Counted from the stretch's first letter, positions 27,221-44,616 are shown. The stretch is 64,000 nucleotides of DNA from Halobacteriovorax sp. JY17 (GCF_002753895.1 NZ_NJER01000001.1:558001-622000); one strand, 5' to 3'. Notes: a model not told the origin generated them from the letters alone. Numbers and translations are program-made.

Positions 27221-28396
27221 ATGAAATGGATTTCATTATCGGTACTACTAATACTATGTCAAAATTCCTTTGCACAAAATGGTCTCATTAACGGCCTTGA
27301 TGCACAGGTTATCAATAAGAAGAGCTACCAACTAGAATTTGAAGCAAGAATCTGGAACTCCACTGCAACTATAGATGATGACGGTGAAGAAGTTGAATTC
27401 GCTGAGGACGAGGGCTTCTCGCAAATGGAAGGGGATATGCTCCTTCGTTACGGTTTTGGTGAACAACTTGAGCTTCGAGGTGGAGCGATTTTTAGGCAAG
27501 TAAAGTCTACTAAAGAAGAGGCTTCAAAGTCTGGCGCTGAGAGCATCAGAGTTGGGGCCAAGTATGCCTTTAAACCGATGGGAAATTGGCACTACGCTGT
27601 TGATCTTCAATATAAGTTAACACTCTATGAGAATACTGATTATGTGATAGCTTCGGATATTCCTGATGGTGAAATTCTCTTGGGAGATGCTGGAAACTCC
27701 TATCACGTGAAAGGAATTCTCTCTTATAAGACTCGAACTGGAAATTCTCTCAATGGCTCATTTGCCTATGTTGGGGCACCAAATAATTTAAGTGCGGAGC
27801 TCTTCTACGATATTAATGGAAAGCTGGCCTGGTCAACTTTTGCTCTCTACGCAGGACTTGAGGGTGTAAATTCACTTAAGAACGATCCTTATTCGTCTGA
27901 GCCAACAACTAAGCCACCACAGGGGCTAGGAGAGTCACGTCTCTATAACTCAGTAAATAGATCATATACGAAGCCTTATATCGGGGCTTATAAATCATTT
28001 GGACGAGTACGAGTTGGAGTACAAGGTGCGCAGGTTATTAGCGGTATTTCCACGGATAAAGGAAGCGAAATAGCTCTATCTATTGCCTGGAATTCAAAGG
28101 GTGAGACAAGTTCGGATAGAAAACTTTCAAAATTCAAAGAATATGACCTAGAGGCCTCTGTTATAAAGGTTTCACCTAGAGGGAAATTTATCAAAATAGA
28201 TAAGGGAATCTCTCAAGATGTTGAAAAAGGACAGACTTTCGATATCTATAAGACAGATTATTTTGGCGGTAATGAACTTGTGGCCCAGGGTCGTGTTTAT
28301 GAGCTGGGGGCCGATTGGGCCATCATTAAACTATCGAAAAAGTTTAAGAAAATGGAAATTAAATCGGGATTTACGGCCAGAGGCCTTGCGAATTAG
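27221..28396 (+). CDS. Secreted outer-membrane-type protein with C-terminal domain
   Basis: 391 residues with a signal peptide (MKWISLSVLLILCQNSFA). Residues ~30-280 alternate like beta-barrel strands (ELRGGAIFRQV, SIRVGAKYAF, NSLNGSFAYVGAP). The last ~90 residues form a separate small domain (VIKVSPRGKFIKIDKGISQDVEKGQTFDIY, then GRVYELGADWAIIKL), which resembles a beta-barrel nucleotide/ligand-type module with two similar halves. Function is unknown. A perfect inverted repeat precedes the start. Confidence 0.7.
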   Translation: MKWISLSVLLILCQNSFAQNGLINGLDAQVINKKSYQLEFEARIWNSTATIDDDGEEVEFAEDEGFSQMEGDMLLRYGFGEQLELRGGAIFRQVKSTKEEASKSGAESIRVGAKYAFKPMGNWHYAVDLQYKLTLYENTDYVIASDIPDGEILLGDAGNSYHVKGILSYKTRTGNSLNGSFAYVGAPNNLSAELFYDINGKLAWSTFALYAGLEGVNSLKNDPYSSEPTTKPPQGLGESRLYNSVNRSYTKPYIGAYKSFGRVRVGVQGAQVISGISTDKGSEIALSIAWNSKGETSSDRKLSKFKEYDLEASVIKVSPRGKFIKIDKGISQDVEKGQTFDIYKTDYFGGNELVAQGRVYELGADWAIIKLSKKFKKMEIKSGFTARGLAN

Positions 28397-28484
28397 AAAA
28401 GGGAAAAAATTTTCTTTTTTGTAATTCCAATACTCTAGGTTAAGATATTATCAGACTAACTAAATTTTCTAAAGGAAACAACCC

Positions 28485-29255
28485 ATGATGTTTTGGAAGA
28501 AATTATTTTATTCGATGCTCACAATTGGACTTTTGAGCACCACTGTAAGTGCGAAGAGATTTACTAACCAATACTCTCAATTTGAGCTTCCTCCTGGTTG
28601 GGGTTGTGCACTTGAGGGAACTGAGTGGGTTTGCCAATCAGAGAATAAAGATAGAAAGAAAGAGGCTATCATTATTCTTGCGGCTAAAATTAGAGGGAAT
28701 CAAGATTCTCTTGAGCAATACCAAGCTTACCTAAAAGGAACGAAGACTTTTACACTGCCAGGTGGAAAGACTCAGGTTTCAGAGCCCGTTTACTCAAAGA
28801 AGAATTCTGTTAATTCTCAGCAATGGATTGATTCACTTCACCTCGCTTCAGAAGTTCCAGGCTTCTATACAAGATATATGGCAACAGTTAAGGCTGACCT
28901 AGGTGTAGCTGTAACATTCTCTGTAGGGAAAGATCACTATAATTCTTATAAGCCTGTCTTTGATAAAATTATCGAAACACTTAGAGTCTTTAGACAGAAG
29001 AAAGATTCTGGCGAGTGGACGGCCAAGACAAAATCAGGTTCCGCTCTTGATAATGCCGATGGGCTTATTGATGATGGCGGTATGACAGGTGATATTAGTG
29101 CAAGAAGCGCTCAAAAGAGTAAATCTGGTGCTGGTGGAGCTACTGACTACCTTATCTATCTTGTTATTGCTGGTGTTGTTGGTTTTGCACTGATGAAGTT
29201 AAAGGCAGGAAAGAAAGGTAAGAAGAAAAAGAAGAAGAAAAGTAAGGAATCATAA
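28485..29255 (+). CDS. Secreted protein with C-terminal membrane anchor and poly-Lys tail
   Basis: 256 residues. A signal peptide (to ~residue 23, VSA) is followed by a globular domain with two Cys (GWGCALEGTEWVCQ), a Ser/Gly/Asp-rich linker at ~185-215, one transmembrane helix (DYLIYLVIAGVVGFALMKL) and a Lys-rich cytoplasmic end with seven consecutive Lys. The layout is that of an inner-membrane-anchored periplasmic protein. AAAGGA lies before two consecutive ATGs. No family is recognised. A perfect bidirectional terminator follows. Confidence 0.75.
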   Translation: MMFWKKLFYSMLTIGLLSTTVSAKRFTNQYSQFELPPGWGCALEGTEWVCQSENKDRKKEAIIILAAKIRGNQDSLEQYQAYLKGTKTFTLPGGKTQVSEPVYSKKNSVNSQQWIDSLHLASEVPGFYTRYMATVKADLGVAVTFSVGKDHYNSYKPVFDKIIETLRVFRQKKDSGEWTAKTKSGSALDNADGLIDDGGMTGDISARSAQKSKSGAGGATDYLIYLVIAGVVGFALMKLKAGKKGKKKKKKKSKES

Positions 29256-29257
29256 AT

Positions 29258-29289
29258 AAAAAAAGGCCCTCGATCGAGGGCCTTTTTTT
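29258..29289. terminator. Perfect 32-bp bidirectional terminator
   Basis: Seven A, GGCCCTC-GATC-GAGGGCC, seven T: a complete palindrome serving both the 28485 gene (+) and the lipoprotein gene ending at 29288 (-). Confidence 0.92.
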
Positions 29290-29911
29290 ATTTTCTATAC
29301 TTTGAGACTAATGCTTTAAATCTATCTGTATTTCTAATGACTTCAATATCTTTATCAGACTCTAAATGTTCCCAGTTCTTCCAACCGGCCTTAAAGGCTT
29401 TTTCTAAAAATGCATAAGCATTCTCTTTCTTATTAAGAGCACTCGATCTCCAGGCGGCTCCCCAGCAACTTTCTCCATTTCCTATATTACAATTCTTAGA
29501 CAGAGAAATGAGCTCTTTTCTAAGGTTCGCCTTATAAAGTGCTTTCTTTTGCAGAGCTGTTAATGGCGTCTTTTCACAAGAGTATGCACTTCCTGTTATT
29601 GCTGTCGCGGTATTGCCTGCGGCCTTCCAAGCACTGGCATTGGTTACCTCATGTACATGTACGACATTGCCACCAAGAGAATAGGTATTATTTTTTAGAG
29701 TATTGCGAGCTCCAACTAAGAGGTCTTCGTTTGAAGTGAAGTCGCCTGTTACCCAATTCCCTTGGCTTCCTGAAACTTCTTTAAGAAAGACACACTTATT
29801 CATATCTGGCTTTGCATAAACGATTTCTACATTAATAGCTTCGTTATGGACTACGTTTGCAGCACATGAGCATAGAAGAGTGAGTACTAATAATTTAAAA
29901 GAATTTGCCAT
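29288..29911 (-). CDS. DUF4156-like lipoprotein
   Basis: 207 residues. A short leader ends in a lipobox (LLCSC, lipidated Cys about residue 17). Residues ~25-112 resemble DUF4156: CVFLKEVSGSQG, then GARNTLKNNTYSLGGNVVHVHEV. A Cys-containing second half with NGESCWGAAWRSSALNKKENAYAFLEKAFKAGW looks like a Sel1/TPR-type tail. GGAG precedes the ATG. Probably an outer-membrane lipoprotein; role unknown. Its stop codon touches the bidirectional terminator. Confidence 0.75.
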   Translation of the reverse strand: MANSFKLLVLTLLCSCAANVVHNEAINVEIVYAKPDMNKCVFLKEVSGSQGNWVTGDFTSNEDLLVGARNTLKNNTYSLGGNVVHVHEVTNASAWKAAGNTATAITGSAYSCEKTPLTALQKKALYKANLRKELISLSKNCNIGNGESCWGAAWRSSALNKKENAYAFLEKAFKAGWKNWEHLESDKDIEVIRNTDRFKALVSKYRK

Positions 29912-29995
29912 TATTTTCTCCGATGAATGTTTAGAGAAAAATATAGAAAAAGAATTAAAATGTAAATGAAAGATATTTTATAAAGAATTATGAAA

Positions 29996-30337
29996 TTAGA
30001 TAATATTTAAGCTCTTGGCCAAATTGTGGTTGGCCGCAATTTCATTATTATCTTCGCTGGTAATTTCTTTTAGTTGTTGCTCTCTTGAGTTAGCAACTTT
30101 CTTCCACTGAGTTTCTTTCTCAGTTCCCTTTATTCTAGTTGCATCGTAATGAGGTCTATCAGTAGCATAGGGAGAACTTGGATCTTTATTCTGTGGAGTG
30201 GCGATTTTCTCAGTTAACCCTTCAAGTTTTTGAAGTGAATAACTAATTGATTCTAGTCCTTCGACAATATCATTGCCTCGTCCTGCACTAGTATCAAATG
30301 ATTTAATAGAATTGAGTCTATTTATTTTTAAGTCCAT
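29996..30337 (-). CDS. Small hydrophilic protein of unknown function
   Basis: 113 residues, no signal peptide or membrane helix. The first half is helical (GNDIVEGLESISYSLQKLEGLTEKI), the second half rich in Lys/Glu/Asn. No clear ribosome site precedes the ATG, and no -10 sits 6 nt away, so the exact start is uncertain. It lies 54 bp downstream of the menEH gene and might be the end of that operon. No family is recognised. Confidence 0.5.
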   Translation of the reverse strand: MDLKINRLNSIKSFDTSAGRGNDIVEGLESISYSLQKLEGLTEKIATPQNKDPSSPYATDRPHYDATRIKGTEKETQWKKVANSREQQLKEITSEDNNEIAANHNLAKSLNII

Positions 30338-30391
30338 AGCTACTTGTCGGTACCTGAGTAGAATACTTTAGTAAGAAAGTGTTTTGAATCG

Positions 30392-32428
30392 TTATTTTAG
30401 GAAGTTAGAGAGGGTTCTTGCGAATTCCTCTGGTTTTTCAAAGTGGGTATTATGAGCACAATCTTCAATTTTAGAAAAGCTAAACTTAAATTTAGCTTCC
30501 ATCTCTTTAGAAGCAGCTAAGTATTTATGATCTTTCTCTCCGCATATAGTGAGAGCTCTAAGATCTTTTGCTCTAGAGAGAAGGAGTCTGTAGTCCGGTT
30601 GAATGCCGACACTAAAGCCTTTAAGAGCTTCTTGCCAAAGCTTCCAGTCGTGTTGGCTAAGTTTGTTTAATAGCTCATTAAAAGAGGCATGATTCTTTAA
30701 TTCTCCAAAGAGTGGATTCTCATACCAATAGGTGAGAAAACTTCTTAAGTCTTCACTAGAGTTAGTATTTTTAAACATCTTTAAATCAGATTGATAGCGT
30801 CTCTCTCTCTCGTCTTCATCAACAATTCCAAGAGAGGCACTTTCAAGAATGAGAGACTCTACAGAAAGTCCTCTAAGAACAAGTCCTAGGGCCAATCTTC
30901 CTCCCTGCGAATAGCCAAGTAAATGAAAAGGGTGTGAGAGAATTGTAGAGAATTTAGTAAAATCCATTTGGAATTTCTCAAGGCTCACTTCATCTACATT
31001 CTTATTTTCTCCGTGTCCTGGGACATCTATAGCAATAGTGAAGAAATCATTTTCTAGAAGCTTGGTGAGCTTGCGCCAGTCTTCTTTGTCTCCCATGAAA
31101 CCATGAATGAGAATAATCCAAGGGTTTCTTGGATCACCGCAAGTTACTAGTGGGAATACGCTCGTGGCCTGATCTATTCTTGCATAGGAGGGAGCAACTT
31201 CTTTCAAAGTCGTTTTCTTAATCTTTATTCCCGAAAAAGCACACGAAGGAACTTTTATAAAATGCCTCGGCCTCTTATGGGGAGAAAGAGAATTCCGTGC
31301 AAGTTCTCTAACCTCTAGAGGCGTCTTCTCTCCTCTATAAAAGAGAATCGACTTCTGTCCTAGAAGCTTATCTTCTATAGGAGTAATATAAGGGTCTTCA
31401 ATACCATTTTCTCTAAGTGTATTTTCAATTTCTAGAGGATTGATATTTTCTCCACCACTAATGAAGATATCGTCTATTCTTCCTATAATATAGTAATGAC
31501 CGTTCTCAATTTTAACTTGATCGCTAGTTTGAATTGTTGAGTTTTCAAAGAGAGGAGAAGCGCTTGGAGTTGTAATAGTCATAGTCTGATCTTTAGAGAG
31601 GGTAATCTCAACATCCCTAAATGGGGCGCCAACACTTTTTAGGACTTCTCTATCACTACTTACTGGGGTCGCCATAATCATGGCGCAAGTTTCAGTCATT
31701 CCATAAGTTGAAGAGGCCTTTAAGTTATTCTTTGAAATATTTTCAAGAGTGCTAAGAGAAGTCTTTGCTCCTCCTATAATGAAAACCGTTTCTTTAAAGA
31801 ATTCAAGCTCTGAGGAATTTGCTATAATTCTCTCAAGCTGTAGAGGGACTACGGAGAGAAAGTTTGGATAAGTTTTAAATTCACTAGACTTTAAGTTCCC
31901 CGGTCGATGAAGGCTAGTCTTTGCACAATTAAAAATTGTTCGAATAAAAATGAGTAATCCTCCCACATGATAGAGTGGGAGAGTTATAGGTAAGTAGTCT
32001 TCTTTTTTCACATTATAGTGAAGAGAGTAATTCCTGGCCGCCGTAAAGAGATTCTTAAAACTTAAGGGGATTGCCTTTGGTTTGGCAGTACTTCCCGAAG
32101 TGAAAATATAGCAAGCAATTGGGTCTAGGAAGTTTAAGTGATTATCTTTAAGTGAGTCTTCATATTCTTTCACTACGGATGGAGGAGTTCCAGGGGCATG
32201 AAGAATGATAGATTTTCCTGCAATCCATGCGGCTAAGATTTTTAGAAGATACTCTCTTGAGTTTTCTGGAATAAGAGAGAGGTTCTTCTCTTTAATTTGC
32301 AAGTAGTCCTTACTAAGGGAGGAAGCTTCTGTGTAAAAGTCTTTATAGCTGGTACTTGAATCAAGTAGTAGAATTTCACTACTTTCAAAAAGAGACTGTA
32401 AATGAGTGGGCTCTATAGTAATTCTCAT
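30392..32428 (-). CDS. MenE-MenH fusion: o-succinylbenzoate-CoA ligase with SHCHC synthase
   Basis: 678 residues in two domains. Residues 1 to ~415 are an AMP-forming ligase: P-loop FTSGSTAKPKA (109-119), TYGMTETCAM, DDIFISGGENINPLEIE and a Lys-rich IKIKK end near 401-405. Residues ~425-678 are an alpha/beta hydrolase with HGFMGDKEDW (442-451), GYSQGGRLAL (nucleophile Ser507) and AHNTHFEKPEEF, all MenH-like. The fusion joins two non-consecutive steps of menaquinone synthesis. It begins one base after the dinB stop codon, so it appears to be the third gene of the lexA operon and away from the other men genes. MenE versus another acyl-CoA ligase is inferred from the fusion partner. Confidence 0.85.
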   Translation of the reverse strand: MRITIEPTHLQSLFESSEILLLDSSTSYKDFYTEASSLSKDYLQIKEKNLSLIPENSREYLLKILAAWIAGKSIILHAPGTPPSVVKEYEDSLKDNHLNFLDPIACYIFTSGSTAKPKAIPLSFKNLFTAARNYSLHYNVKKEDYLPITLPLYHVGGLLIFIRTIFNCAKTSLHRPGNLKSSEFKTYPNFLSVVPLQLERIIANSSELEFFKETVFIIGGAKTSLSTLENISKNNLKASSTYGMTETCAMIMATPVSSDREVLKSVGAPFRDVEITLSKDQTMTITTPSASPLFENSTIQTSDQVKIENGHYYIIGRIDDIFISGGENINPLEIENTLRENGIEDPYITPIEDKLLGQKSILFYRGEKTPLEVRELARNSLSPHKRPRHFIKVPSCAFSGIKIKKTTLKEVAPSYARIDQATSVFPLVTCGDPRNPWIILIHGFMGDKEDWRKLTKLLENDFFTIAIDVPGHGENKNVDEVSLEKFQMDFTKFSTILSHPFHLLGYSQGGRLALGLVLRGLSVESLILESASLGIVDEDERERRYQSDLKMFKNTNSSEDLRSFLTYWYENPLFGELKNHASFNELLNKLSQHDWKLWQEALKGFSVGIQPDYRLLLSRAKDLRALTICGEKDHKYLAASKEMEAKFKFSFSKIEDCAHNTHFEKPEEFARTLSNFLK

Positions 32429-32429
32429 A

Positions 32430-33536
32430 TTAAATTAACTTCAACTGTCTAGGACCAGTATCGCCTTGCTCTAGGCGAACTCCAATTCCTATTAATCTTA
32501 CAGGCCTTTGCCCTCTTTGATAAGCAATCTTTGTTAACTCTGCTATATGTTCACTTAGTTCTGTATTAAATTTAAAGTCTTCCCAGAGTTCTAGATAGAA
32601 TTCGTCTTCTTTCTTCTTTTCTACAGTGACAGTTTGAAAATCTAGAAACTTTATTTTGACAAAGGCCTTGGCAATCTTCTTCGTTGTTCCATACTTCTGT
32701 TGGTATCTTCTGAGGCGCTCTGTTAATTCAAGACTAAGCCCAGAGATATATTCTAAGCATTTACCTATATCTTCAATATCTTTATTAAAAGTATGCTCAA
32801 CGGAAATAGACTTTCTATCTGTGGTAGGAATAACTTCTCTATGATCAATGCCGCGAGATTTATAATAGAGAGACTTTCCCATCTTTCCGAATATGGCCTC
32901 TAGTTTTTCTAACTCCCAGGCCCTAACCTTTTCACAGGTATCTAATCCATAATCATATAATTTGGAGGCACTGACTTTTCCTATACCTGGAATCTTCCTC
33001 ACATCAAGAGGTTTTACAAATTCATCAACTTGATCGGGAGTGATAACAAATAGTCCCGAAGGTTTCTTCCAGTCGCTAGCTATCTTTGCTAAGAATTTAT
33101 TGGGAGCAACTCCTGCAGAAGCAGTCAGCTCTGTTTCTTTAAAAATAAGCCTTTGTATTTCTTTGGCGATAAGTGTGGCACTTCCGTTAAATTTATCGCA
33201 TTCGCTCACATCTAGAAAGGCTTCGTCTAAACTTAGAGGTTCGATAGAATCTGTGAAGCGTTTAAAAATTCTATGAATGAGTTCAGAGGCTTCTTTGTAT
33301 TTTTTAAAGTCTGGAGGAATAATTTTTAAGTGAGGACACTTTCTAATGGCCATAGAAGATGGCATTGCTGCTCGTACTCCAAACTCTCTCGCAAGATAAT
33401 TACTAGTACAGAGGACACTCCTTGAGTTGGGAGGTCCTCCAATGGCGAGAGGAATATTTCTAAGAGTTGGATCATCCCTCATCTCAACGGCAGCATAGAA
33501 GCAGTCCATATCAATGTGGATAATTTTTCTATCCAT
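32430..33536 (-). CDS. dinB: DNA polymerase IV
   Basis: 368 residues, a Y-family polymerase. The catalytic carboxylates are Asp9 in HIDMDCFYAAVEMRD and the Asp-Glu of SLDEAFLDVS. The helix-hairpin-helix VRKIPGIGKVSASKL and the little-finger domain follow. It performs error-prone translesion synthesis. The start is 7 bp after the lexA stop codon, a standard SOS operon arrangement, and the stop is 1 nt before the menEH start. Confidence 0.96.
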   Translation of the reverse strand: MDRKIIHIDMDCFYAAVEMRDDPTLRNIPLAIGGPPNSRSVLCTSNYLAREFGVRAAMPSSMAIRKCPHLKIIPPDFKKYKEASELIHRIFKRFTDSIEPLSLDEAFLDVSECDKFNGSATLIAKEIQRLIFKETELTASAGVAPNKFLAKIASDWKKPSGLFVITPDQVDEFVKPLDVRKIPGIGKVSASKLYDYGLDTCEKVRAWELEKLEAIFGKMGKSLYYKSRGIDHREVIPTTDRKSISVEHTFNKDIEDIGKCLEYISGLSLELTERLRRYQQKYGTTKKIAKAFVKIKFLDFQTVTVEKKKEDEFYLELWEDFKFNTELSEHIAELTKIAYQRGQRPVRLIGIGVRLEQGDTGPRQLKLI

Positions 33537-33543
33537 CTCTCTC

Positions 33544-34167
33544 TTACTCGTAAGTTCTCATAAGGCCGATGAGAATTCCTGCAATAGAGAATTCAGACTC
33601 TCTAGGGTCTACGAGGATAGGTTTCATTGAACTATTGGCGGGAATCAATTCAATCATATTCTTGTTGGGAGAATATCTTTTTACTGTCGCTTCTCCATCG
33701 ACGATGGCAATAATTGTCTGGCCACGATTGGCATTTTGTTGATGTCTACAAACGATAATATCTCCGTCCAAAATCCCATCTTCAATCATGGAGTCGCCCT
33801 TTACGTTGAGAGCGTAGTATTGTTTATTATCTCTAATCATATGGGCCGGAACACCAATGGTATTGTCTGGATTCTCAATGGCCTCAATTGGAATACCTGC
33901 GGCCACGTCTCCTAGAAGAGGAATATCAATTGTTGAATCAATAGAGTTTATTACTTGGTTTTCTTTGGGTTTTAATCCGCGTCTAGCATTCCAATCTGAA
34001 TCAATATGGCCTGCATCTTTTAAATATTTAAGGTATCTTTGTACTGAACCAAAAGATTTAAGGGCAAAGGCCTCTTTGATTTCTTTCTGCGTGGGAGCGA
34101 CTTCGTGTTCGTCCCAATAGGCAGTGATAAAATCTAGAACTTCTTTTTGTTTCTTTGTTATAGTCAT
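33544..34167 (-). CDS. lexA: LexA repressor
   Basis: 207 residues. The N-terminal winged helix (residues ~1-65) has TQKEIKEAFALKSFGSVQRYLKYL. The self-cleavage site is Ala90-Gly91 (DVAAGIP), with Ser126 (GDSM) and Lys163 (ATVKRY) as catalytic dyad. LexA represses the SOS genes until RecA-stimulated cleavage. The ATG is 6 nt after its -10 box and has no ribosome site, so the transcript is probably leaderless. It is followed closely by dinB and menEH. Confidence 0.97.
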   Translation of the reverse strand: MTITKKQKEVLDFITAYWDEHEVAPTQKEIKEAFALKSFGSVQRYLKYLKDAGHIDSDWNARRGLKPKENQVINSIDSTIDIPLLGDVAAGIPIEAIENPDNTIGVPAHMIRDNKQYYALNVKGDSMIEDGILDGDIIVCRHQQNANRGQTIIAIVDGEATVKRYSPNKNMIELIPANSSMKPILVDPRESEFSIAGILIGLMRTYE

Positions 34168-34173
34168 ACTTAA

Positions 34174-34202
34174 ATTTTAAGCGTAAGTTTTGCGTAAGTC
34201 AA
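34174..34202 (-). promoter_or_regulatory. lexA promoter with TTACGC direct repeats
   Basis: Minus strand: TTGACT (34202-34197), 17-nt spacer, TAAAAT (34179-34174), then 6 nt to ATG. Two TTACGC hexamers (34192-34197 and 34181-34186), 11 bp apart, fill the spacer and are the best operator candidates. Confidence 0.7.
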
Positions 34203-34227
34203 GGCTTTATTTTTTGGAATATATTCT

Positions 34228-35058
34228 ATGGATTTTAAGAACCTCATCTTTGATAACGTCTACTCAAATAAGATTTTTCTAAGCCTTACTATCTTCATCG
34301 TAGTTATGATTCTTAGAATGTTTGTGGCCAAAGGATTAAATAATGCCACTAATATGAAAATTGATAAGAGAAGACGCTGGTTCGTTAATCTAAATTCAAT
34401 GGTCTCTTTTCTCATTCTTATTTCCTTCTTTCTTATTTGGTCGAATGAAATTAAAACAATCGCTTTCTCTCTTGCAGCAATTCTAGTCGCAATAGTTATC
34501 GCCTCTAAAGAGTTCACTCTAAATTTCTTTGGGGGACTTTTTAAAATTACTCAAAATAGTTTTCATATCGGAGATCGTATTGAAATTAATGGTCTTCGAG
34601 GAGATGTTATTGACCGCACACTTTTTTCTACTAAAGTTCTAGAGATTGGCCCCGGTCATGAGACTCACCAGCTAACAGGAAGAAGTATTATTATTCCAAA
34701 TAGTGTCTTCCTCACAAATTGTCTTATTAATGAATCACACTTAAAGAACTACGTTCTTCATACTTTTAAAATTCCTGTTAAGGGAAGTATTGACTGGGAA
34801 GCGAGTGAGAAGCTTCTCGTTGAAATTTGCGAAAAACACTGTAGTGATTACTTTGAAAGGGCGCAAAAGCACTTTGATAGAATTCAGAAAACTTCTCATT
34901 TAGAAATACCTGTTTTAAAGCCTAGGGTTCATATAAATGTAATCTCCCCTGACCAATTAGATCTAATTGTCAGATTTACCGCTCCTGCGGGTCTAAAGGG
35001 GCGAATTGAGCAACGTATATTGAAAGATTATTTACGAGAATATAAGAATATTAAATAA
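34228..35058 (+). CDS. MscS-family mechanosensitive channel
   Basis: 276 residues. Three hydrophobic helices are seen; the last (FSLAAILVAIVIASKEFTLNFFGGLF) is the pore-lining TM3 type. The beta domain FHIGDRIEINGLRGDVIDRTLFSTKVLEIG follows, typical of MscS. The C-terminal alpha/beta domain is short. Such channels release solutes on hypo-osmotic shock in the inner membrane. It is divergent from lexA with only 60 bp between the start codons, so both promoters lie on the same short stretch. Its own promoter is not clear. Confidence 0.9.
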   Translation: MDFKNLIFDNVYSNKIFLSLTIFIVVMILRMFVAKGLNNATNMKIDKRRRWFVNLNSMVSFLILISFFLIWSNEIKTIAFSLAAILVAIVIASKEFTLNFFGGLFKITQNSFHIGDRIEINGLRGDVIDRTLFSTKVLEIGPGHETHQLTGRSIIIPNSVFLTNCLINESHLKNYVLHTFKIPVKGSIDWEASEKLLVEICEKHCSDYFERAQKHFDRIQKTSHLEIPVLKPRVHINVISPDQLDLIVRFTAPAGLKGRIEQRILKDYLREYKNIK

Positions 35059-35196
35059 AATATCAGTTAGTTAAGCACTTATCGATAAGCATAGCTAATA
35101 ATGTATATTAGCTGTAAGTATTTATTAGATTGACTTAATCTCTTTCTCTTTGGTAGAAATACCTATCAAATTTTTACTCTATGAGAGGAGAGACTC

Positions 35197-35934
35197 GTGA
35201 AAAAATTTCTAGCAGCAACACTACTAACGATTTTTACTTTTTCAGCATCAGCTGGAATGAGATCACTTCCATTTACGCAAACAGACTTAGAATTTGTAGA
35301 CGATTCAAAAACTTATGACGTGGACTATCACACTATTTCAGAGGTAACTGTTGAAGAAGTAGAGATAGGAGACGAGTTCGTATGGGCTCCTCAATATAAA
35401 GGTTTTGAAAAGAACCTAGGTGAAGTGATCATGGTTGTGGATAAATTGATCGCACTTGGAAAAAAGATTTGGGTAATTGTTGAAGCAGGTAAACCTGTTG
35501 TAACTGTTAACATGGGAGCACCAATAAGTGTTCTTCCTAAAACTGATAATGGTCAACTTGCAGCTTTCTATAATATGGACTCTTGGAGTATGCCAATGGC
35601 CAGAACTTATAAAGTAAGTTTTAAAAATGGTTTTGGTTCAAGTGTTATTGGATTTGACTATACTGTTAATTTCCAATGGGGCGGAAAGTATGAAGACAAG
35701 GGGGCTTACCTTACAGGATTAAATGTTCAGGCGAGTAATGTGAGTGTTAGCTGGGGATTTAACTTCGATGCCAATTCGGAGCTCGTTTCAATAGTTAATC
35801 ACGGATCAAAAGATAGTCCAGTTGCAGGTGCTAGTGTGAGAGTTAATTACACAGCGAAGAGTGTTCTTAGAGAAATCAAAACTTCTGAGACATTCCATGT
35901 GACAGGAAATGGCTTAATTCAAAAGCTTTACTAG
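35197..35934 (+). CDS. Secreted protein of unknown function
   Basis: 245 residues with a signal peptide (MKKFLAATLLTIFTFSASA) and AGAGGAGAG before the start. The mature protein is beta-rich with an early acidic region (DDSKTYDVDYHTISEVTVEEVEIGDE) and many short alternating strands. There are no Cys residues and no membrane anchor. No family is recognised. A strong terminator follows. Confidence 0.75.
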   Translation: MKKFLAATLLTIFTFSASAGMRSLPFTQTDLEFVDDSKTYDVDYHTISEVTVEEVEIGDEFVWAPQYKGFEKNLGEVIMVVDKLIALGKKIWVIVEAGKPVVTVNMGAPISVLPKTDNGQLAAFYNMDSWSMPMARTYKVSFKNGFGSSVIGFDYTVNFQWGGKYEDKGAYLTGLNVQASNVSVSWGFNFDANSELVSIVNHGSKDSPVAGASVRVNYTAKSVLREIKTSETFHVTGNGLIQKLY

Positions 35935-35945
35935 TAAATATCTAA

Positions 35946-35982
35946 AGCGAGAAAGATCTTCTTTCTCGCTCTTCTTCTTTTT
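35946..35982 (+). terminator. Intrinsic terminator after 35934
   Basis: AGCGAGAAAGA-TCT-TCTTTCTCGCT, an 11-bp stem, followed by a T-rich tract. Confidence 0.85.
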
Positions 35983-35993
35983 CATCTAAAAAA

Positions 35994-36929
35994 TTAAAGA
36001 CCAAATTCTTGAAAGAAGTTAAGAATCATTTTCGTGGAGTCTGGACCAGCGCTTTGATTATAGGGAAGAGTTTGATCTCCGCCTGACCACTCATGCTTTA
36101 AATTTTCTATAAGCAGTTCTTTGACGATTGTTTTCTGATTTCTGTCGTGCCAAGTCTTTACTTGGTAATGGTAACCGTCAGCTCTTTCAATTGCGCTTTC
36201 TTCTAAAGAGAGCTCTTGGTAAGAGAAAGAATTGTAAGTTGTGTATTGAGTGGATAGGTCTTTGGCGTGCACTGGTGCAACAACCTCATCTTCACTTCCT
36301 TGAATTATAAGGGCGGGAACCTTTGTCTTTGCGTACTTTCCACAAAGAAGTCCTTTCTGAGCCGCGAGATATGGACTTATGAACATTCCTCTCTCTAAAA
36401 CAGCTTGGGCCATGAGAGGGTTCACTGTTGCCGCGTAGGGGATTCCTGAGTGAGAGGCCACCGCTTTGAAGAGTTTAGGGTAGCAGTTCATCAAAATATT
36501 TGACATGGCCGCGCCGGAACTCATCCCAAGTAAGTAGAGCTTTGATTCATCTAGAGCGTACTTACTCTTCGCGTGGTGAATGGACTCTACAATAATGGAA
36601 GGCTCTCCGAGTCTTCTTTGGTTAATATCTAAGAACCAATTCCAACAATTATAAGGATTGGTGGCCGGGTCTTGTTCTGGAAGTAGGAGATTAAATCTAA
36701 ACTTCTTGGCCGCTTCGTAAAGTCTGGCCCCTCTCGCAAAAGTATCACCAGTTTGCTTGCAACCATGAATTGCTACAACCGTCGGCGAGTTTGGTTGAAT
36801 GCCTTCTGGTCTAAAGAGTTTATATTCTCTTAGACCGTAGGGAGTAAGAATTTTATGAGTTGTTAATTGGGCCAAAGAATTTGACCCAATAAGTGTAAGT
36901 ACAGATACTAGAAATGACTTATTTAGCAT
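35994..36929 (-). CDS. Secreted PHB depolymerase-type esterase
   Basis: 311 residues with a signal peptide (~20 residues). It has the oxyanion motif VVAIHGCKQTGD, the lipase box GMSSG with Ser137, QGSEDEVVAP carrying the acid, and LKHEWSGGD with the His. LLPEQDPATNPYNCWNWF is characteristic of short-chain polyhydroxyalkanoate depolymerases. It likely cleaves PHB or related esters outside the cytoplasm. It begins 3 nt after the stop of the upstream barrel gene, suggesting coupled translation and a possible porin-plus-hydrolase unit. Confidence 0.85.
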   Translation of the reverse strand: MLNKSFLVSVLTLIGSNSLAQLTTHKILTPYGLREYKLFRPEGIQPNSPTVVAIHGCKQTGDTFARGARLYEAAKKFRFNLLLPEQDPATNPYNCWNWFLDINQRRLGEPSIIVESIHHAKSKYALDESKLYLLGMSSGAAMSNILMNCYPKLFKAVASHSGIPYAATVNPLMAQAVLERGMFISPYLAAQKGLLCGKYAKTKVPALIIQGSEDEVVAPVHAKDLSTQYTTYNSFSYQELSLEESAIERADGYHYQVKTWHDRNQKTIVKELLIENLKHEWSGGDQTLPYNQSAGPDSTKMILNFFQEFGL

Positions 36930-36932
36930 GAT

Positions 36933-38099
36933 TTAGAACCAGAAATTTACGCCAGAACCTAGGGCCCAAGCATCAGTGAAACCTGCATAACCATGGGCGT
37001 AGCTTAGATGAGGAAGAGCTTTCCACTCATACTTTCTTTCGTAGAGAGCGCCTACTTTAAAGTTTACTCTCTTCGCCATTTTCCAAATAACACCAAAGTC
37101 GATTTTGTAGTTATTTGTATGGGCACTCTGACCTCTGTTAAATACTTGTTGTCCAACATTGTTTGGAATATTATTCTTGTTGAATTCTTGAGAGTTTACG
37201 AGAGCAAATTCAGTGTTTAATTGAAGCGTTGTGATTTCTGTGAGTGAATAAAGCATTTGTAATTGTCCCAATTGCTCATATTGATGCTCTACCGCGTATC
37301 TATCATTTGGGTGATTGCTCACGTAGGCAAAAGTATATTCAAAAACAAATTCCCAGTCACCAGTCTTATATTTTCCTGAAAAGTCAGCGGCCCAGTTTAA
37401 GTTGTAATCAATATCTCTATCTCTTACTAGAGCTCCAAGAGCGAATTCAGCTCCTCTCTTAGGGTAGAAGTAGAATTTATTTGAAACACCAACGTCTCTT
37501 CTTGTATCAATTTCTTTTTCAGTTTCATAAACAATTTCACCTTGTCCTTCATTTGGATTACTTCTAGTTGTTTCGTATCCAACTGGGTTTCTATCGTCTC
37601 TTGAAACTTTTGGCTGTCTTGCATCAGCAAAGATATTTAACGTATTTCTAAAACCTCTTCTGTAACCACCGTAGCTTACTTCACCAACAATCTTTCTATC
37701 TTGATCTCTAAAACTGTGCTTTGTTCCTAGAAGTGAGCCACCATCAATATAGTGTGATTCTAAAACTCCAAAGGCCATTTGATGAATTCTAACTTTTCCC
37801 TTACCCATTCCAAAGCTCCAATTTCTTACTGGACGCCAAGTAAGCATTGCTTCTTCATAGAGATTATTTGGTTCATCTAGTTGACCATCGAGGTCTAACT
37901 TTATCTTTGCCCCGAAGTCTTCGTGATTGAAATAGAATTTTAAATCGATTGTCCCGATTCCCATTTTCATCGTAGGGTCTCTATTTTCTACTTTCTCATA
38001 AGAGAGAGTATTTAGTGCGATGAAACCTTTCACTTCAGTGTCTAAGGCAAAAGTGGTTGAAGTTAGGGCAAGTAATAGGAAAATGAGTTGAAATTTCAC
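36933..38099 (-). CDS. Outer-membrane beta-barrel protein (porin-like)
   Basis: 388 residues, GTG start with GGAG 5 nt upstream and a signal peptide (MKFQLIFLLLALTSTTFA). The mature sequence is a chain of amphipathic strands (IGTIDLKFYFNHEDFGAKIKLDLDG, WSFGMGKGKVRIHQ) and ends GSGVNFWF with terminal Phe, the barrel insertion signal. It may be a porin for an organic ligand. The esterase gene follows directly. No family is recognised with confidence. Confidence 0.75.
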   Translation of the reverse strand: MKFQLIFLLLALTSTTFALDTEVKGFIALNTLSYEKVENRDPTMKMGIGTIDLKFYFNHEDFGAKIKLDLDGQLDEPNNLYEEAMLTWRPVRNWSFGMGKGKVRIHQMAFGVLESHYIDGGSLLGTKHSFRDQDRKIVGEVSYGGYRRGFRNTLNIFADARQPKVSRDDRNPVGYETTRSNPNEGQGEIVYETEKEIDTRRDVGVSNKFYFYPKRGAEFALGALVRDRDIDYNLNWAADFSGKYKTGDWEFVFEYTFAYVSNHPNDRYAVEHQYEQLGQLQMLYSLTEITTLQLNTEFALVNSQEFNKNNIPNNVGQQVFNRGQSAHTNNYKIDFGVIWKMAKRVNFKVGALYERKYEWKALPHLSYAHGYAGFTDAWALGSGVNFWF

Positions 38100-38223
38100 A
38101 AGGGCTCCAGCTATAAATTAATACTGAGCTCTTGATTAACATACTAAAAATCTAAGTTAAAGTGAGAATATCATTAGGAAAAACTTAACGCGTGGCAAAG
38201 GGGAATATTACATAATGTAGAGA

Positions 38224-38376
38224 CTAGATGTCTCTACATTTTTCAATTGAGTCAAAGTAAGTATGCTCACTTGTGTATAAGTTATCAGAGCATTTGTCAT
38301 TGGCAATCTCTCTATTTGTAGTCGAGCTACAAGCAGTGATAGTAAGTGCAAAGGCAATTAGTAATAATTTCTTCAT
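38224..38376 (-). CDS. 50-residue lipoprotein
   Basis: Encodes MKKLLLIAFALTITACSSTT and 30 further residues with two Cys (DKCSDNLYTSEHTYF, then EKCRDI). The leader ends in a perfect lipobox (ITAC, lipidated Cys16), and GGAG lies 6 nt before the ATG. It is too short for many gene finders. Mature length is only 35 residues. Function unknown. Confidence 0.75.
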   Translation of the reverse strand: MKKLLLIAFALTITACSSTTNREIANDKCSDNLYTSEHTYFDSIEKCRDI

Positions 38377-38620
38377 AGCAATCTCCAGTTAAATAGCTCT
38401 TCGTCACATTGGATGAATAAGCTAAGGTAAAAACTCATAACATGATAGATTTCAGATACTTAAGGTAAGGTGATGACTATCAGGTTACTGCTTGCCCGAT
38501 TCTGCATCCCTTAGATGCCCTTCTATTATACACAAAATTAAAATTAATCTCTAGTAGAGAAGATTTTGTCCAGCCGATAGTACTTATTGTTCTTATTGAA
38601 GTTTGAAGAGTGAGAGACGG
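38377..38620. other. Intergenic stretch between two small lipoprotein genes
   Basis: No open frame with a ribosome site or tRNA-like fold was seen here. It should hold the promoter of the 50-residue lipoprotein gene, but no convincing -10/-35 pair stands out. A GC-richer patch occurs at 38490-38520. Confidence 0.4.
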
Positions 38621-38651
38621 AAAAAGTAGGCCACAAATAGTTTATGTGGCC
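38621..38651 (-). terminator. Terminator after the metal-binding-type lipoprotein gene
   Basis: Minus strand: GGCCACA-(9 nt)-TGTGGCC followed by TACTTTTT. Confidence 0.8.
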
Positions 38652-38660
38652 CTTTTCTCA

Positions 38661-38958: not shown

Positions 38959-39792
38959 TTAAAGAGGTGAAACTTTTAGGCTCTCTAAATAAAAGAACTT
39001 TAGCGTATCAAGTCCAGCGACTTGATCGCCTTCTCTTGCAATCATATTTAAAATCTTTAGATTATTTGGAGGCTCAAAAGCACTAGAGATAATGACTTCT
39101 TGGTTTTCGAGGGCCAATTCTTTCAAAGTGTCTCGAAGTGAGATATTCCAAGTAGGTTTTGCAACGAGATAATTCGCGAAATCAAGCTCTCTTCTTAGAG
39201 AAATATTCTCATCAAGGGCGAGTTTAAGCTCATTTCTTCTATCTAGAGTTTCCCAATCTCTCACATTGGTGAGAGGTTCTTCGATATATTGAATTCTTGT
39301 GAGGTCTAGCTTTTCTAAATACCTATTAAGATCTTTTACAGTAAAGGCCATATTGCCATCTAATCTCACCGAAATACTTTCAGAGAGATTACTTAGTAAT
39401 TCTTTTAACCATAGAGACTCGAGGGAGAGATCATCTCTGCCGATCTTTATTTTGTAAATACTATCTTCAACTAGACTTGATGAGATTTCTTTAGGAGACT
39501 TTGCAAGATCAATATAAAGTAGCTTATTTGATTCTGCTTGAACTTCCTCAACATCTGTAAAAATATCGAAGACTTCTCTTACAAAGAGAGCGCTTGGAGT
39601 TTTAAATTTCTTAGAAGTAAAATCTATAAATGATTCTGGAAGACTTTCTTGGTGTAGACCAGGTAGAGGGGCGAGATCAACAGAGAAATTTCCATTTGAG
39701 ACTTCAATCCACTCTCGTGTCTCTATCGTGATATCTCCAACCTTAATAGGATTTTTTAAATTACAACTACATTTTAAGTAGGAGTAGCTCAT
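38959..39792 (-). CDS. menC: o-Succinylbenzoate synthase
   Basis: 277 residues of the enolase superfamily. Metal ligands are visible as Asp in RLDGNMAF, Glu in IEEPL and Asp in ALDENI. A catalytic Lys is likely in IYKIKIGR, where the KxK motif reads KIK, and the second Lys in VAKPTWN. MenC dehydrates SHCHC to o-succinylbenzoate. It is the last gene of the menG-F-D-A-C operon, overlapping menA by 4 nt. The protein is somewhat shorter than the usual ~320 residues. Confidence 0.88.
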   Translation of the reverse strand: MSYSYLKCSCNLKNPIKVGDITIETREWIEVSNGNFSVDLAPLPGLHQESLPESFIDFTSKKFKTPSALFVREVFDIFTDVEEVQAESNKLLYIDLAKSPKEISSSLVEDSIYKIKIGRDDLSLESLWLKELLSNLSESISVRLDGNMAFTVKDLNRYLEKLDLTRIQYIEEPLTNVRDWETLDRRNELKLALDENISLRRELDFANYLVAKPTWNISLRDTLKELALENQEVIISSAFEPPNNLKILNMIAREGDQVAGLDTLKFFYLESLKVSPL

Positions 39793-40667
39793 AGAAGAAG
39801 ACCAACACTAAAGATGAGTGAGTAGATAAAGAGATACTTTCCAGTATTACCTAGCGCCGTATTAAGATTCTTATCTATTGGCCCTCTCGCTACTTGTTTC
39901 CAAGTCTTATAGAAAGGATAGCAGGAGAGAGTCGCGAGTATGGCCCACTTTGTATCAAGAGTTAGGACTGCATAGTACGGAATAAAAGTAGAAGATAAGA
40001 CAAGTGATAGAGTGAAAGCTCTTGCAAACTTTGGCCCCACTAGCGTTGCAACTGTAATTTTCTTCGCTCGAGTATCACTCTTAATATCGCGCAGATTATT
40101 TACACTCATAATAGCGGCCGAGATTAATCCAGGCCCTAATCCTATGATAAGTATACTCAAGTTAAAATGCTGGTGTTGTAGAAAGTATGTTCCCCAAACG
40201 GCCACAGGCCCAAAGAAAATAAGAGCAAAAACTTCACCTAAAGCGTAATGGCTAAGAGGGAGCGGCCCTCCCGTATAGCAATAGGCGGTTAAGATACAGA
40301 AAAATCCCATGATAATAATAGTTGGACCACCAATAATCATTAAATAGATACTAATCAGTATGGCAAAGAGAAAGCAGGCGATGAAACCTCTCTTCACTTC
40401 TGCCGGTGGAATGAGACCTGATTGAGTCACTCTTGTTGGGCCTAGTCTATCGTCAGAGTCTGTCCCTCTAATGGCATCGTAGTAATCATTTACAAAATTT
40501 GTTCCTACTTGCATGGAGAGAGCGGCAAGTAGAGTGAGGACGAAAATAAGTATGGAAAAAGTTTGTGTTTCTCTATAGGCGAGGGCTGTTCCTAGAATTA
40601 CTGGACCACAGGCCGCCGTTAATGTCTTAGGTCTTGAAGCAAGTATCCAAGCGTTTAACTTGCTCAC
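39789..40667 (-). CDS. menA: 1,4-Dihydroxy-2-naphthoate polyprenyltransferase
   Basis: 292 residues of the UbiA membrane prenyltransferase family with about eight helices. The first Asp motif NFVNDYYDAIRGTDSDDR and the second NNLRDIKSDTRAKK are intact, as is the N-terminal RPKTLTAACGPV typical of MenA. It attaches the polyprenyl chain to DHNA in the inner membrane. GTG start overlaps the menD stop (GTGA), and its 3' end overlaps menC by 4 nt. Confidence 0.95.
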   Translation of the reverse strand: MSKLNAWILASRPKTLTAACGPVILGTALAYRETQTFSILIFVLTLLAALSMQVGTNFVNDYYDAIRGTDSDDRLGPTRVTQSGLIPPAEVKRGFIACFLFAILISIYLMIIGGPTIIIMGFFCILTAYCYTGGPLPLSHYALGEVFALIFFGPVAVWGTYFLQHQHFNLSILIIGLGPGLISAAIMSVNNLRDIKSDTRAKKITVATLVGPKFARAFTLSLVLSSTFIPYYAVLTLDTKWAILATLSCYPFYKTWKQVARGPIDKNLNTALGNTGKYLFIYSLIFSVGLLL

Positions 40668-42382
40668 AGTTTTACCGTCTTTAATTTATTGTAGAGTTCA
40701 ATATTTTGCTCATTATCAACAGTGACTTCTAAGATAATAGTTTCTCTATTCTTCTGCGCGTGATTGAATTCAAAATCAAATTCTTGAGTACTTGTAATTA
40801 ACTTATAATCAATATCAAATAACTTGGCTGCATTTTCAAATGTGAGCGAATGAGGCGTCGTAAGATAAGGGAGAAGCTCTTTGTCTTTTGCTATTGGCAG
40901 GAGAGTGAAAATTCCTCCTCCTGAGTTATTCACAACGACAATGCAAAGAGGTGCTTTTGATTCTTTGATATTTTGTAGAGAGTTTAAGTCATGTAAGAAG
41001 CTTACGTCTCCCACAATTAATGTTGTGAACTTATTGATTGCTTCTGCACAACCTAGAGCACTGGCCATAAGACCTTCAATTCCACTGACTCCACGATTTG
41101 TGAAGATATCAATTTCTTTCTTTGCTTCAAGAGATAAGTAATTATCAAAACTTCTAACTACAGTGCTATTGGCAATATAGAGGGCCTGATTATTTCCCAT
41201 GCTATCAATTATCTTTTTAGAAATGTAAGGATAACTTAGAGGGGCATCATCAATTAATTTACATTTCTTATCGCTAAAATCTTTCCAATTAATTTGAATA
41301 GGACTCTTAGACGGAGAAATGAGAGGGATCATCTCACTACAGAATTGGTCAACTTCAGAGATCATTCTATAGTCAGTATTTTGAGAAGGATCTTCTTTCT
41401 CCTCACTCCAATTGACAGTGATGAGATTTATATCTGAAAATTCTTCTAGGAATCTATAGTAGTGCTTACTTGTTGTTCGCCCACCTAAGTGAATTATTGT
41501 ACTTGGGCGCTCTTTACTCATTTGTTCGTAGACTTCACTATGATCAAAAGTAGGAATGATATTATCTTGTATTGAATAGCTATATTTAAGTGACGAAGAG
41601 ATATCTAAAAAGACTGGCCAGTTTAGCTTTGAAGCGAATTCTTTAATTACTTCTCTATCTAAAGTACACGGAAGAGAGCCTATGACGAGAAGACCTTTTG
41701 GATTCTTCTCGATAATGTCAGCGATAACTTCCTTCGCCTTAGGACTAATCCCTTGAGTAGGAGGAAAGTACTTTGTTTGAAATTTTCTTTTAAACCCTGC
41801 TTGAGATTTTTCAATATAGTTTGAACTCACTTGAGTTCTCGTCATATCGAGTGGCTCACGCAGTGGTATATTTAAATGAACCGGCCCTTTAATAGGGTAG
41901 CGCGATCTAAAAATGAGGTGATCAATCGTATTTCTTATGACCTGTGGACAAATTTCTTCCGTAGGAGCTCCAAGACAATTATCTGCTAGGATGTGATTTC
42001 CGTAGAAGTGAACTTGATTAATTGTTTGGTTAGCATCACTTGTAGCAAGTTCAATAGGTCTATCTGCTGATAGAACGATTAAAGGTGTGGCCGATTTCTT
42101 GGCTTCAATTATTGCAGGAGTATAATTGGCGAGGGCCGTTCCTGAGGTGCAAAGAAGAGCACTCGTTCTCCCTGTGGCCTTAGCATTCCCAAGAGCTCTA
42201 TAGGATTGTCCTCTCTCGTCAATTCCAAGATAGAGGTTAACTTCCTTTCTTTGTAGGAGTGATTGAACAAGAGGTGCGTTTCTCATGCCTGGAGAGATGT
42301 AGAAATCTATCACTCCAGACTTAACTAGCTCATCAATGATAATTGATGACCATATTGTAGAAAGGTTATTTTCTAAGAGCAT
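40664..42382 (-). CDS. menD: SEPHCHC synthase (MenD)
   Basis: 572 residues, a thiamine diphosphate enzyme. The N-terminal domain has DFYISPGMRNAPLVQ, GIDERGQSYRALGNAKATGR and CTSGTALANYTPA, all MenD-specific. The C-terminal ThDP site is GDVSFLHDLNSLQ followed by VNNSGGGIF. It adds 2-oxoglutarate to isochorismate. The SPGSR of most MenD proteins reads SPGMR here. AGG precedes the ATG, and the gene is 6 bp from menF. Confidence 0.96.
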   Translation of the reverse strand: MLLENNLSTIWSSIIIDELVKSGVIDFYISPGMRNAPLVQSLLQRKEVNLYLGIDERGQSYRALGNAKATGRTSALLCTSGTALANYTPAIIEAKKSATPLIVLSADRPIELATSDANQTINQVHFYGNHILADNCLGAPTEEICPQVIRNTIDHLIFRSRYPIKGPVHLNIPLREPLDMTRTQVSSNYIEKSQAGFKRKFQTKYFPPTQGISPKAKEVIADIIEKNPKGLLVIGSLPCTLDREVIKEFASKLNWPVFLDISSSLKYSYSIQDNIIPTFDHSEVYEQMSKERPSTIIHLGGRTTSKHYYRFLEEFSDINLITVNWSEEKEDPSQNTDYRMISEVDQFCSEMIPLISPSKSPIQINWKDFSDKKCKLIDDAPLSYPYISKKIIDSMGNNQALYIANSTVVRSFDNYLSLEAKKEIDIFTNRGVSGIEGLMASALGCAEAINKFTTLIVGDVSFLHDLNSLQNIKESKAPLCIVVVNNSGGGIFTLLPIAKDKELLPYLTTPHSLTFENAAKLFDIDYKLITSTQEFDFEFNHAQKNRETIILEVTVDNEQNIELYNKLKTVKL

Positions 42383-42388
42383 GTCTGC

Positions 42389-43735
42389 CTACAGTGTGAT
42401 CTCGAAGTTCTTCATTTTATTTTGAGTCTCAATCCACTCACTTTCAGCTTCGCTTCCAGTAACTAGACCACATCCTCCAAATAGATGTAACTTCGTATCT
42501 TCAGTCAGAGCACTTCTAATGGCCACGGCAAACTCGCACGAGTCTGCAGAGATGTAGCCCATCGGTCCTGCGTAGAGTCCTCTATCAAATGGCTCTGCTT
42601 CTTCAATACACTTCTTGGCCATCTCCCATGGACGTCCACCAACTGCTGGAGTTGGGTGAAAAGTATTTAGGAGAACAGCAAAGTTACTTCTCTCTGAAAG
42701 AGTAGCACTTATATGAGTATGAAGATGTTGAATAAATTTAAGCTTAAGAATAGACTCTTTATTTTCGATTCTTATATCTGCGCCCATGGCCGAAAGCTTT
42801 TCTTGGATTTCTCTAGTGACGATTCTGTGCTCATTTAATTCTTTAGCAGAGCTCATGAGTTCACTTTGAAATTTAACGTCGGCCTCAAAGTCATTTGATC
42901 TTGGACGAGTTCCGGCCAAGCAGTCTAGGGAAATCTCTCTTTGATTTAATTTAAATAGTTTTTCAGGAGTAAAACTCATGAAAACTTTCCCATCACCTGG
43001 ATCAAGGTACATGAGGTAGCTATCTGCCGCATTCTTCATATTTTTTTCGAAGATGGCCATAGGGTCAGCTAAGCGGTCAAATTCAACAATTTCTTTTCTG
43101 GCCAAGACAACTTTTTCAAGCGGAGTTGTCTCTAAGTTTCCAAGACAGTAGTCAATCATTTTAGACCACTGGTCTTTGCTTGGGTATGTGGAAACTTCTT
43201 GAGGTTTTGTCACAGTAAAGTCATGTCTAATGAAATTTAAGTAAGCTTCAAGTTCAAAGAGAGCATTTGATCTCTTATCTTCTGTTGAGATAGACTTCTT
43301 ATTAAAAACAACTTTTAGAACTGTTGATTCCCCAGTTGTTTCAAAGATAATTTTTGGAAGAGTGAAGTGACATTCGTCAAATCCGGCCCAGGCTTCATCT
43401 CTTTTTGAGTTAGAGTCAAATCTCTGAGCACCTAGGAAAGTTAAGTCGCTATCAGACTCAATTAAACCTAGAAGTTTATTGTAATCATATTTCTTTGTGT
43501 AAGTAATGTGCGAGCCGATTCCAAGAATCTCTTTACTACTATCTTTACTCTTGAAGTAGTTAAGTGGTCTGTGAATAACGTGACCCAGAAGATTTGAGAG
43601 TTTTGTTTTTTCAATTTTAAATTTATAAGTAACAAATCTCTTCTTGTCTTTTGCTAGCCCATCAAAGTCAACCTGTTTCCAGTGCTCTGAAAGTTGTCTT
43701 ATAACAGAATGTTTTAATTCGAGTAGATTAATCAT
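42389..43735 (-). CDS. menF: Isochorismate synthase
   Basis: 448 residues of the chorismate-utilising family. LDCLAGTRPRS, ELNEHRIVTREI, HLHTHISATL, FHPTPAVGGRPWEMA and DRGLYAGPMGYI are present; the last two carry the isochorismate synthase pattern. It isomerises chorismate as the committed step to menaquinone. The start codon directly abuts the menG stop codon, consistent with coupling in the five-gene operon. Confidence 0.94.
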   Translation of the reverse strand: MINLLELKHSVIRQLSEHWKQVDFDGLAKDKKRFVTYKFKIEKTKLSNLLGHVIHRPLNYFKSKDSSKEILGIGSHITYTKKYDYNKLLGLIESDSDLTFLGAQRFDSNSKRDEAWAGFDECHFTLPKIIFETTGESTVLKVVFNKKSISTEDKRSNALFELEAYLNFIRHDFTVTKPQEVSTYPSKDQWSKMIDYCLGNLETTPLEKVVLARKEIVEFDRLADPMAIFEKNMKNAADSYLMYLDPGDGKVFMSFTPEKLFKLNQREISLDCLAGTRPRSNDFEADVKFQSELMSSAKELNEHRIVTREIQEKLSAMGADIRIENKESILKLKFIQHLHTHISATLSERSNFAVLLNTFHPTPAVGGRPWEMAKKCIEEAEPFDRGLYAGPMGYISADSCEFAVAIRSALTEDTKLHLFGGCGLVTGSEAESEWIETQNKMKNFEITL

Positions 43736-44449
43736 TTATTCTTTATCACCGATATATAAATTAGAAATTCCAAAAGTTAACTCTTGAAATTTTGCGTTCT
43801 TAAATCCAGCTTCTTTCATCCACTTGGTAAAGTCCTCGCCGTATGGGAAGTCCTCTACCGTTTCATTTAAATACTTATAAGCATCTCTATGCTTTGAAAG
43901 AAGATTTCCAACAAAAGGAAGAAGGTGTCTAAAGTAGAACATGTAGACAGTGTTCACTAGAAAATTCTTTGGAACACCAAACTCCATAATCATGACTCTT
44001 CCGCCTGGCTTTAGAACTCTAAAGATTTCGCGGAGTGACTTCTGTGGATCTGGGAAGTTTCTAATTCCAAAACTAATAGTCACTACGTCCATTGTTTCGT
44101 CGGCTGCAGGAATATTACAACCATCTCCAATATGAAGAGCGATCTTATCTTCTTTCTTTGCTTTCTTTACTTTGACTTTTCCAAGTTCAACCATTCCCTT
44201 AGAAAGATCGATTCCTGTAATTTTAGAAATATTTTCAGACTTAACTAGAACGAGAGGAACATCTCCTGTACCTGTTGCTAGATCAAGGGCCTGCATATTC
44301 TTTCTTGCAGGAAGATTCTTTAGGAGCTTATTTCTCCAATAAATATCAATTCCACAAGATAGTAGCTTATTTAATAGATCGTAAGTTCCTGCAATCTCAT
44401 CAAAAATTTTCCAAGATTCTTTTTTACGGCCTTGAAGTGCTGACGTCAT
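43736..44449 (-). CDS. menG: Demethylmenaquinone methyltransferase
   Basis: 237 residues from ATG 44449, which has AGAGGA 4 nt upstream; a GTG 30 nt earlier has no ribosome site. SAM-binding motif I is LDLATGTGDVPL, then ISFGIRNFPDPQKSLREIFRVLKPGGRVMIMEFGVP, a UbiE/MenG signature region. The N-terminal IFDEIAGTYDLLNKLLSCGID also fits. It methylates demethylmenaquinone in the last step. First gene of the menG-F-D-A-C operon, divergent from the prenyl synthase. Confidence 0.95.
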   Translation of the reverse strand: MTSALQGRKKESWKIFDEIAGTYDLLNKLLSCGIDIYWRNKLLKNLPARKNMQALDLATGTGDVPLVLVKSENISKITGIDLSKGMVELGKVKVKKAKKEDKIALHIGDGCNIPAADETMDVVTISFGIRNFPDPQKSLREIFRVLKPGGRVMIMEFGVPKNFLVNTVYMFYFRHLLPFVGNLLSKHRDAYKYLNETVEDFPYGEDFTKWMKEAGFKNAKFQELTFGISNLYIGDKE

Positions 44450-44616
44450 AGGTTCCTCTTTTAGGTATTCTAAGGGCACAGATATAACTTTTTGTGCCTA
44501 ATGTTGCAAGTGTTGTCTAAAAAAAGAAGTAATCATTTCATGTAACTTCGATCTCATCGAGATTTTAGATTTACAATGGACGTGTGGATTGTTAAAACAG
44601 GGTGTTATTAAATCAC

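Follow-up and report, generated by a model that had tools for sequence, protein, structure and literature searches.

The closest described system is that of Vibrio cholerae, where the SOS regulon was found to extend to the quinone genes ubiEJB: mitomycin C induces them, and their co-transcription with an SOS gene comes about by read-through (PMC5963079). In parallel, the LexA box of Bdellovibrio bacteriovorus, in the form in which it is cited in PMC8565304, is a TTAC-N3-GTAA palindrome. Here we describe the lexA-dinB-menEH locus of Halobacteriovorax sp. JY17, where a gene for a fused menaquinone enzyme follows those of the SOS repressor and of DNA polymerase IV; our literature search found no published description of such a lexA-dinB-menE/H arrangement. 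The locus was analysed within a stretch of 64,000 nucleotides (NZ_NJER01000001.1:558001-622000), called the window from here on, and all positions are counted from its first letter. Our best explanation as a whole, to which we give a probability of about 0.7, is that menEH would be the third cistron of an autoregulated lexA operon read from a single LexA-controlled promoter, a stranded remnant of an older men operon whose induction by DNA damage is a by-product.

Operon layout and the predicted LexA operator

All three genes lie on the minus strand in close succession. The lexA gene (33544..34167; 207 aa, with HTH and S24 peptidase domains; TIGR00498 at 173 bits, cut-off 111) is followed after 7 nt by dinB (32430..33536; 368 aa; NF002677 at 468 bits, cut-off 256) and this, after 1 nt, by the menEH fusion ORF (30392..32428; 678 aa); the sequence-only reading had given the same gap sizes, and coordinates, strand and gaps were exact on re-check. 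It had also seen neither promoter nor terminator between the genes, and our scans of the operon strand agree, since no promoter-like site was found between lexA and menEH, and the sole terminator-like site is weak (7 pairs, 3 GC, where shuffles give 3.7). An Rfam scan of positions 28000-45000 at gathering thresholds returned zero RNA elements. Beyond menEH by 54 nt, on the same strand, there is a gene for an uncharacterised protein of 113 aa (29996..30337), possibly a fourth cistron into which the transcript would run on. Proteins of about 100-115 aa, of a family with an NSPYxxDR-type motif and without a Pfam match, are encoded 10-130 nt after menEH in g1, g3, g4, g16 and g44 (five loci) as well as in the window.

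The one good promoter-like site upstream of the operon on its strand stands directly before lexA, as a predicted sigma-70-type promoter (34174..34202, minus strand; TTGACT-17-TAAAAT). Its -10 element ends 6 nt before the ATG in the window, and about 6-9 nt before it throughout the family (about 45 lexA upstream regions), which predicts a lexA mRNA with no leader or almost none. Overlapping the -35 element is a predicted LexA operator (34181..34199, minus strand), a direct repeat ACTTACGC-N3-ACTTACGC with a period of 11, and the conserved form of the repeat, TTGACTTACGC-N4-CTTACGC, hardly varies in sequence or position upstream of the lexA genes (about 45) across the family. In the 3.47-Mb genome there are two exact copies of the core, CTTACGC-N5-TTACGC, against about 0.05 expected, one before lexA and one before recA; exact boxes were found in 60 of the 129 genomes of the class, and a reversed control pattern gave 2 hits in all of them together. 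Among relatives, the copies stand before lexA, recA (in many genera), uvrA and a gene that we call ImuA-like from its sequence, with no NCBIfam hit. Given that the repeat is conserved at lexA, and that exact copies recur at recA, uvrA and the ImuA-like gene while being rare by the control, we predict with high confidence that it is the LexA operator. The promoter of the whole operon thus carries an element common to other SOS genes, which would make menEH a member of an SOS operon. The set of boxed genes suggests a small SOS regulon, varying between genera, and gives Bacteriovorax-like predators a testable direct-repeat LexA operator together with its predicted targets. The exact boxes before uvrA and the ImuA-like gene come from two loci in two genomes.

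Several variants of this system were seen in passing. In a sister clade (g7, g11, g24, g36, g43, g46; eight loci), the operator takes a variant form built of TACGG direct repeats, frequently present twice, and there is no lexA-men linkage. Some genomes, four in number, carry two lexA genes, and g39 has one lexA in its men operon and a second at another place, which would give the operator room to diverge. Antisense boxes with 1-2 mismatches near the dinB start in g4 were judged to be coding conservation.

We consider SOS-inducible co-transcription of menEH with lexA-dinB very likely from the conserved operator and the tight spacing. During normal growth, basal transcription from the lexA promoter would supply menaquinone synthesis, and since menEH is the sole copy, this basal activity should have to suffice. 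Upon DNA damage, the RecA-triggered self-cleavage of LexA would raise lexA, dinB and menEH together. Should menEH be essential, full silencing of the lexA promoter would never be possible, and a non-cleavable LexA could limit menaquinone.

Conservation of the linkage and its possible purpose

By a class-wide search with neighbour analysis, lexA was found immediately before menE in 44 genomes belonging to 19 genera of the family, with dinB between the two in 35 of them, and on this distribution of lexA-(dinB)-menE(H) chance adjacency was rejected. The junction into menE is a gap of at most 30 nt or an overlap in 39 of the 44 loci measured, the overlaps being upper bounds because longest-ORF starts were used. 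A single fused protein carries MenE and MenH in 41 genomes from 15 genera; in others, the two are separate neighbours. Outside the family, no fused MenE-MenH was found in a sample of the phylum, and lexA beside menE was not seen in the eight outside-family genomes having lexA. A contig scan with one protein as the query yielded no more than two loci, both of them distant and uninformative. What the sequence-only reading took as unusual is therefore not the oddity of one genome but the arrangement of a family.

This persistence is what brings up the question of purpose. In an adaptive coupling, SOS induction of MenE and MenH would have been selected because more menaquinone is available for respiration, ATP or redox protection during repair, and the linkage, kept across the 19 genera and surviving the dispersal of the remaining men cluster, could indeed reflect selection and not inertia; the V. 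cholerae ubiEJB genes, co-induced with an SOS gene, point the same way. However, no LexA box was found at any other men gene in the window or the genome, and menEH carries none where it stands apart from lexA (g9, g15, g21, g22, g30, g45, g48); in g15, lexA-dinB keeps its box while the separate menEH is without one. A second LexA box directly serving menGFDAC or menEH was looked for and not found. Besides, MenE and MenH alone would not be obvious flux-controlling steps. Because no other men gene is boxed and menEH lacks the box away from lexA, a purposeful link between damage and menaquinone is not supported and is probably absent. We thus hold adaptive coupling to be unlikely, and slightly more doubtful still is its lineage-wide form, in which LexA directly controls the MenH and MenE steps so that damage adjusts the quinone supply, a selected link that would be maintained through the family by the genes staying in the lexA operon. 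Most likely, the rise of MenEH is a tolerated by-product, given that the rest of the pathway (menGFDAC and menB) has no LexA operator. Of the earlier claim that a respiratory gene is co-transcribed with SOS genes, linking DNA damage to menaquinone, the predicted SOS-inducible co-transcription stands, but an evolved link does not. With a housekeeping respiratory gene placed behind the promoter of the SOS repressor in many genera, nature in any case offers a test of whether genes sharing an operon are passengers or partners.

As another possibility, menEH could have its own main promoter within dinB and receive only minor read-through from that of lexA. Many operon genes do have internal promoters, most of the co-induced neighbours in V. 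cholerae also have promoters of their own (PMC5963079), and a weak promoter-like site (8/12) at -95, near the dinB end, is present in 3 of 5 close relatives. Nevertheless, nothing on the operon strand reaches 9/12 upstream of menEH, and in most genera the neighbouring genes overlap or almost touch. Synonymous-site conservation is not raised at the dinB end, and a conserved internal promoter, judged from these sites, was rejected for want of any signal. All this makes a dominant internal promoter a rather improbable account, and we keep to transcription of menEH from the LexA-controlled promoter; a weak internal one close to the dinB end may exist.

Proposed ancestral order of the men genes

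The remaining men genes of the window lie on the same strand as the operon, 5-10 kb upstream of it, and menB is elsewhere in the genome. They comprise menG/ubiE, a methyltransferase gene (43736..44479), a menF-like isochorismate synthase gene (42389..43735), menD (40664..42382), menA (39789..40667) and menC (38959..39792), all of them minus, menC being the last gene of what would be the upstream portion of the ancestral men cluster, now split off; the predicted promoter of menGFDAC (44651-44622) has no LexA box. Between menC and lexA, on the plus strand, there is a gene (35197..35934) for a 245-aa exported protein of unknown family. Genes for an exported protein of about 245 aa occupy this place, on the opposite strand, in six genera, the similar ones being those of g2, g13, g16, g28 and g41 (six loci), and perhaps this gene marks the original insertion.

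Among relatives, the order in g39 is menF-D-A-C-lexA-menE-menH, which g41 and g28 share with small inserts added, and g34 has menD-A-C-lexA-dinB-menE up to the contig end. Without lexA, the order is menG-F-D-A-C-E-H in g30 and menC-E-H in g48. Where menA and lexA are on one contig (28 assessable genomes), menA precedes lexA on its strand in 23, from 12 genera, at 0.95 to 15.5 kb; in the window, the distance is 5.6 kb. The window thus looks like the dispersed remnant of a men cluster with lexA(-dinB) inside, and since relatives do have men clusters that contain lexA, we rejected the idea that the SOS operon of this genome captured a men gene recently. The simplest account of these gene orders is that an ancestral menG-F-D-A-C-E-H operon received lexA, by itself or together with dinB, at the junction of menC and menE, and that later insertions would have split menC from lexA, leaving menE-menH, fused here, stranded behind lexA-dinB. 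The opposite direction of change, with lexA leaving the men operon, is less likely. In the LexA tree, which is unrooted, the in-operon lineages are grouped weakly (78), and the linked state clusters, with at least 5 changes, a number as low as which was given by 0 of 500 shuffles. No lexA was detectable in the g30 genome, and its lexA-free men operon could therefore be a secondary loss.

Such an order might also couple the two systems in reverse, if read-through from an intact men operon containing lexA set the LexA level, so that the SOS threshold followed the respiratory state. The short distance from menC to the lexA start, about 50 nt in g34 and about 285 nt in g39, would allow it; yet in the window, as in most genera, kilobases of DNA with opposite-strand genes separate menC from lexA, and we regard this coupling as very improbable.

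The fused enzyme and its comparison with known systems

The MenE part, for the o-succinylbenzoate-CoA ligase, comprises residues 1 to about 412 (31193..32428, minus), and the MenH part, for SHCHC synthase, residues from about 430 to 678 (30392..31141, minus), with Pfam AMP-binding and alpha/beta hydrolase matches at residues 101-283 and 436-671. The best NCBIfam equivalogs are TIGR01923 menE for the ligase half, at 165.5 bits and below the curated cut-off of 330.2, and TIGR03695 menH for the hydrolase half, at 194.2 bits and narrowly below its cut-off of 208.6, so that the assignment of both halves rests on residues, context and other evidence. Thus, both the menE and the menH model found a match in each of the 32 fused relatives that were scanned, and the closest solved structures are those of MenE (3ipl, 5x8f, 5buq, 6nj0, 5c5h) and MenH (4mxd, 4gdm, 2xmz). 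An AlphaFold2 model is confident (mean pLDDT 91) and shows two domains.

In the MenE part, S111, G112, R163, D303, R317, D319 and K402 are invariant in the 32 relatives. By alignment to 6nj0 and 5c5h, R163 falls on R195 of E. coli MenE, the OSB-binding arginine (changed to Lys in 5C5H), and K402 lies within the C-terminal lysine motif, so the ANL motifs, this arginine and the catalytic lysine are all present; the N-terminal 100 residues are divergent. In the MenH part, Y506, S507, R511, W568, D633 and H659 are invariant in the same relatives and R544 is nearly so. The Ser-Asp-His triad (S507, D633, H659) is intact and the Arg/Trp substrate residues (R511, R544, W568) are present, in accordance with the E. 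coli numbering of these residues. No second MenE or MenH was found anywhere in the genome, and with no other copy the idea of menEH as a paralogue was rejected. By these sequence features, both domains look genuine and menEH looks like a bifunctional MenE/MenH enzyme of menaquinone synthesis, as in the earlier description of a ligase fused to a MenH-like hydrolase; that the two activities are non-consecutive is borne out by the pathway order D-H-C-E-B. It is least probable of all that the ligase serves another substrate as an acyl- or aryl-CoA ligase, since the half-cut-off TIGR01923 score and divergent first 100 residues that would favour this are set against best models and structures that are all MenE, the invariant R163, and the fusion to MenH in a genome without another MenE but with the remaining pathway present.

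Compared with the classical menFD-H-B-C-E and menG-F-D-A-C-E-H clusters, the enzymes are the same, and in g30 and g48 menE is likewise between menC and menH; in the window, by contrast, menC is separated from menE by lexA(-dinB), the men genes are dispersed, and a single fused gene stands for menE and menH. The plant protein PHYLLO joins the F, D, C and H activities, and it resembles the present fusion in uniting non-consecutive steps of the menaquinone pathway, although here these are MenE and MenH. With Bdellovibrio bacteriovorus, which the sequence-only reading assigned to the same phylum, the likeness is a LexA-type repressor; at the window lexA promoter, however, a search for its palindrome, as cited, gave a direct repeat instead, and the predicted operator before lexA and recA, TTACGC-N5-TTACGC, is in its layout closer to the alphaproteobacterial GTTC-N7-GTTC. 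Finally, V. cholerae ubiEJB shares with our locus the co-transcription of quinone-biosynthesis genes with an SOS gene, predicted here from the sequence, but there the cause is read-through reaching an adjacent operon, and the genes are ubiquinone genes outside the lexA operon, whereas lexA-dinB-menEH would be an autoregulated lexA operon that carries menE and menH, with near-zero spacing kept across genera.
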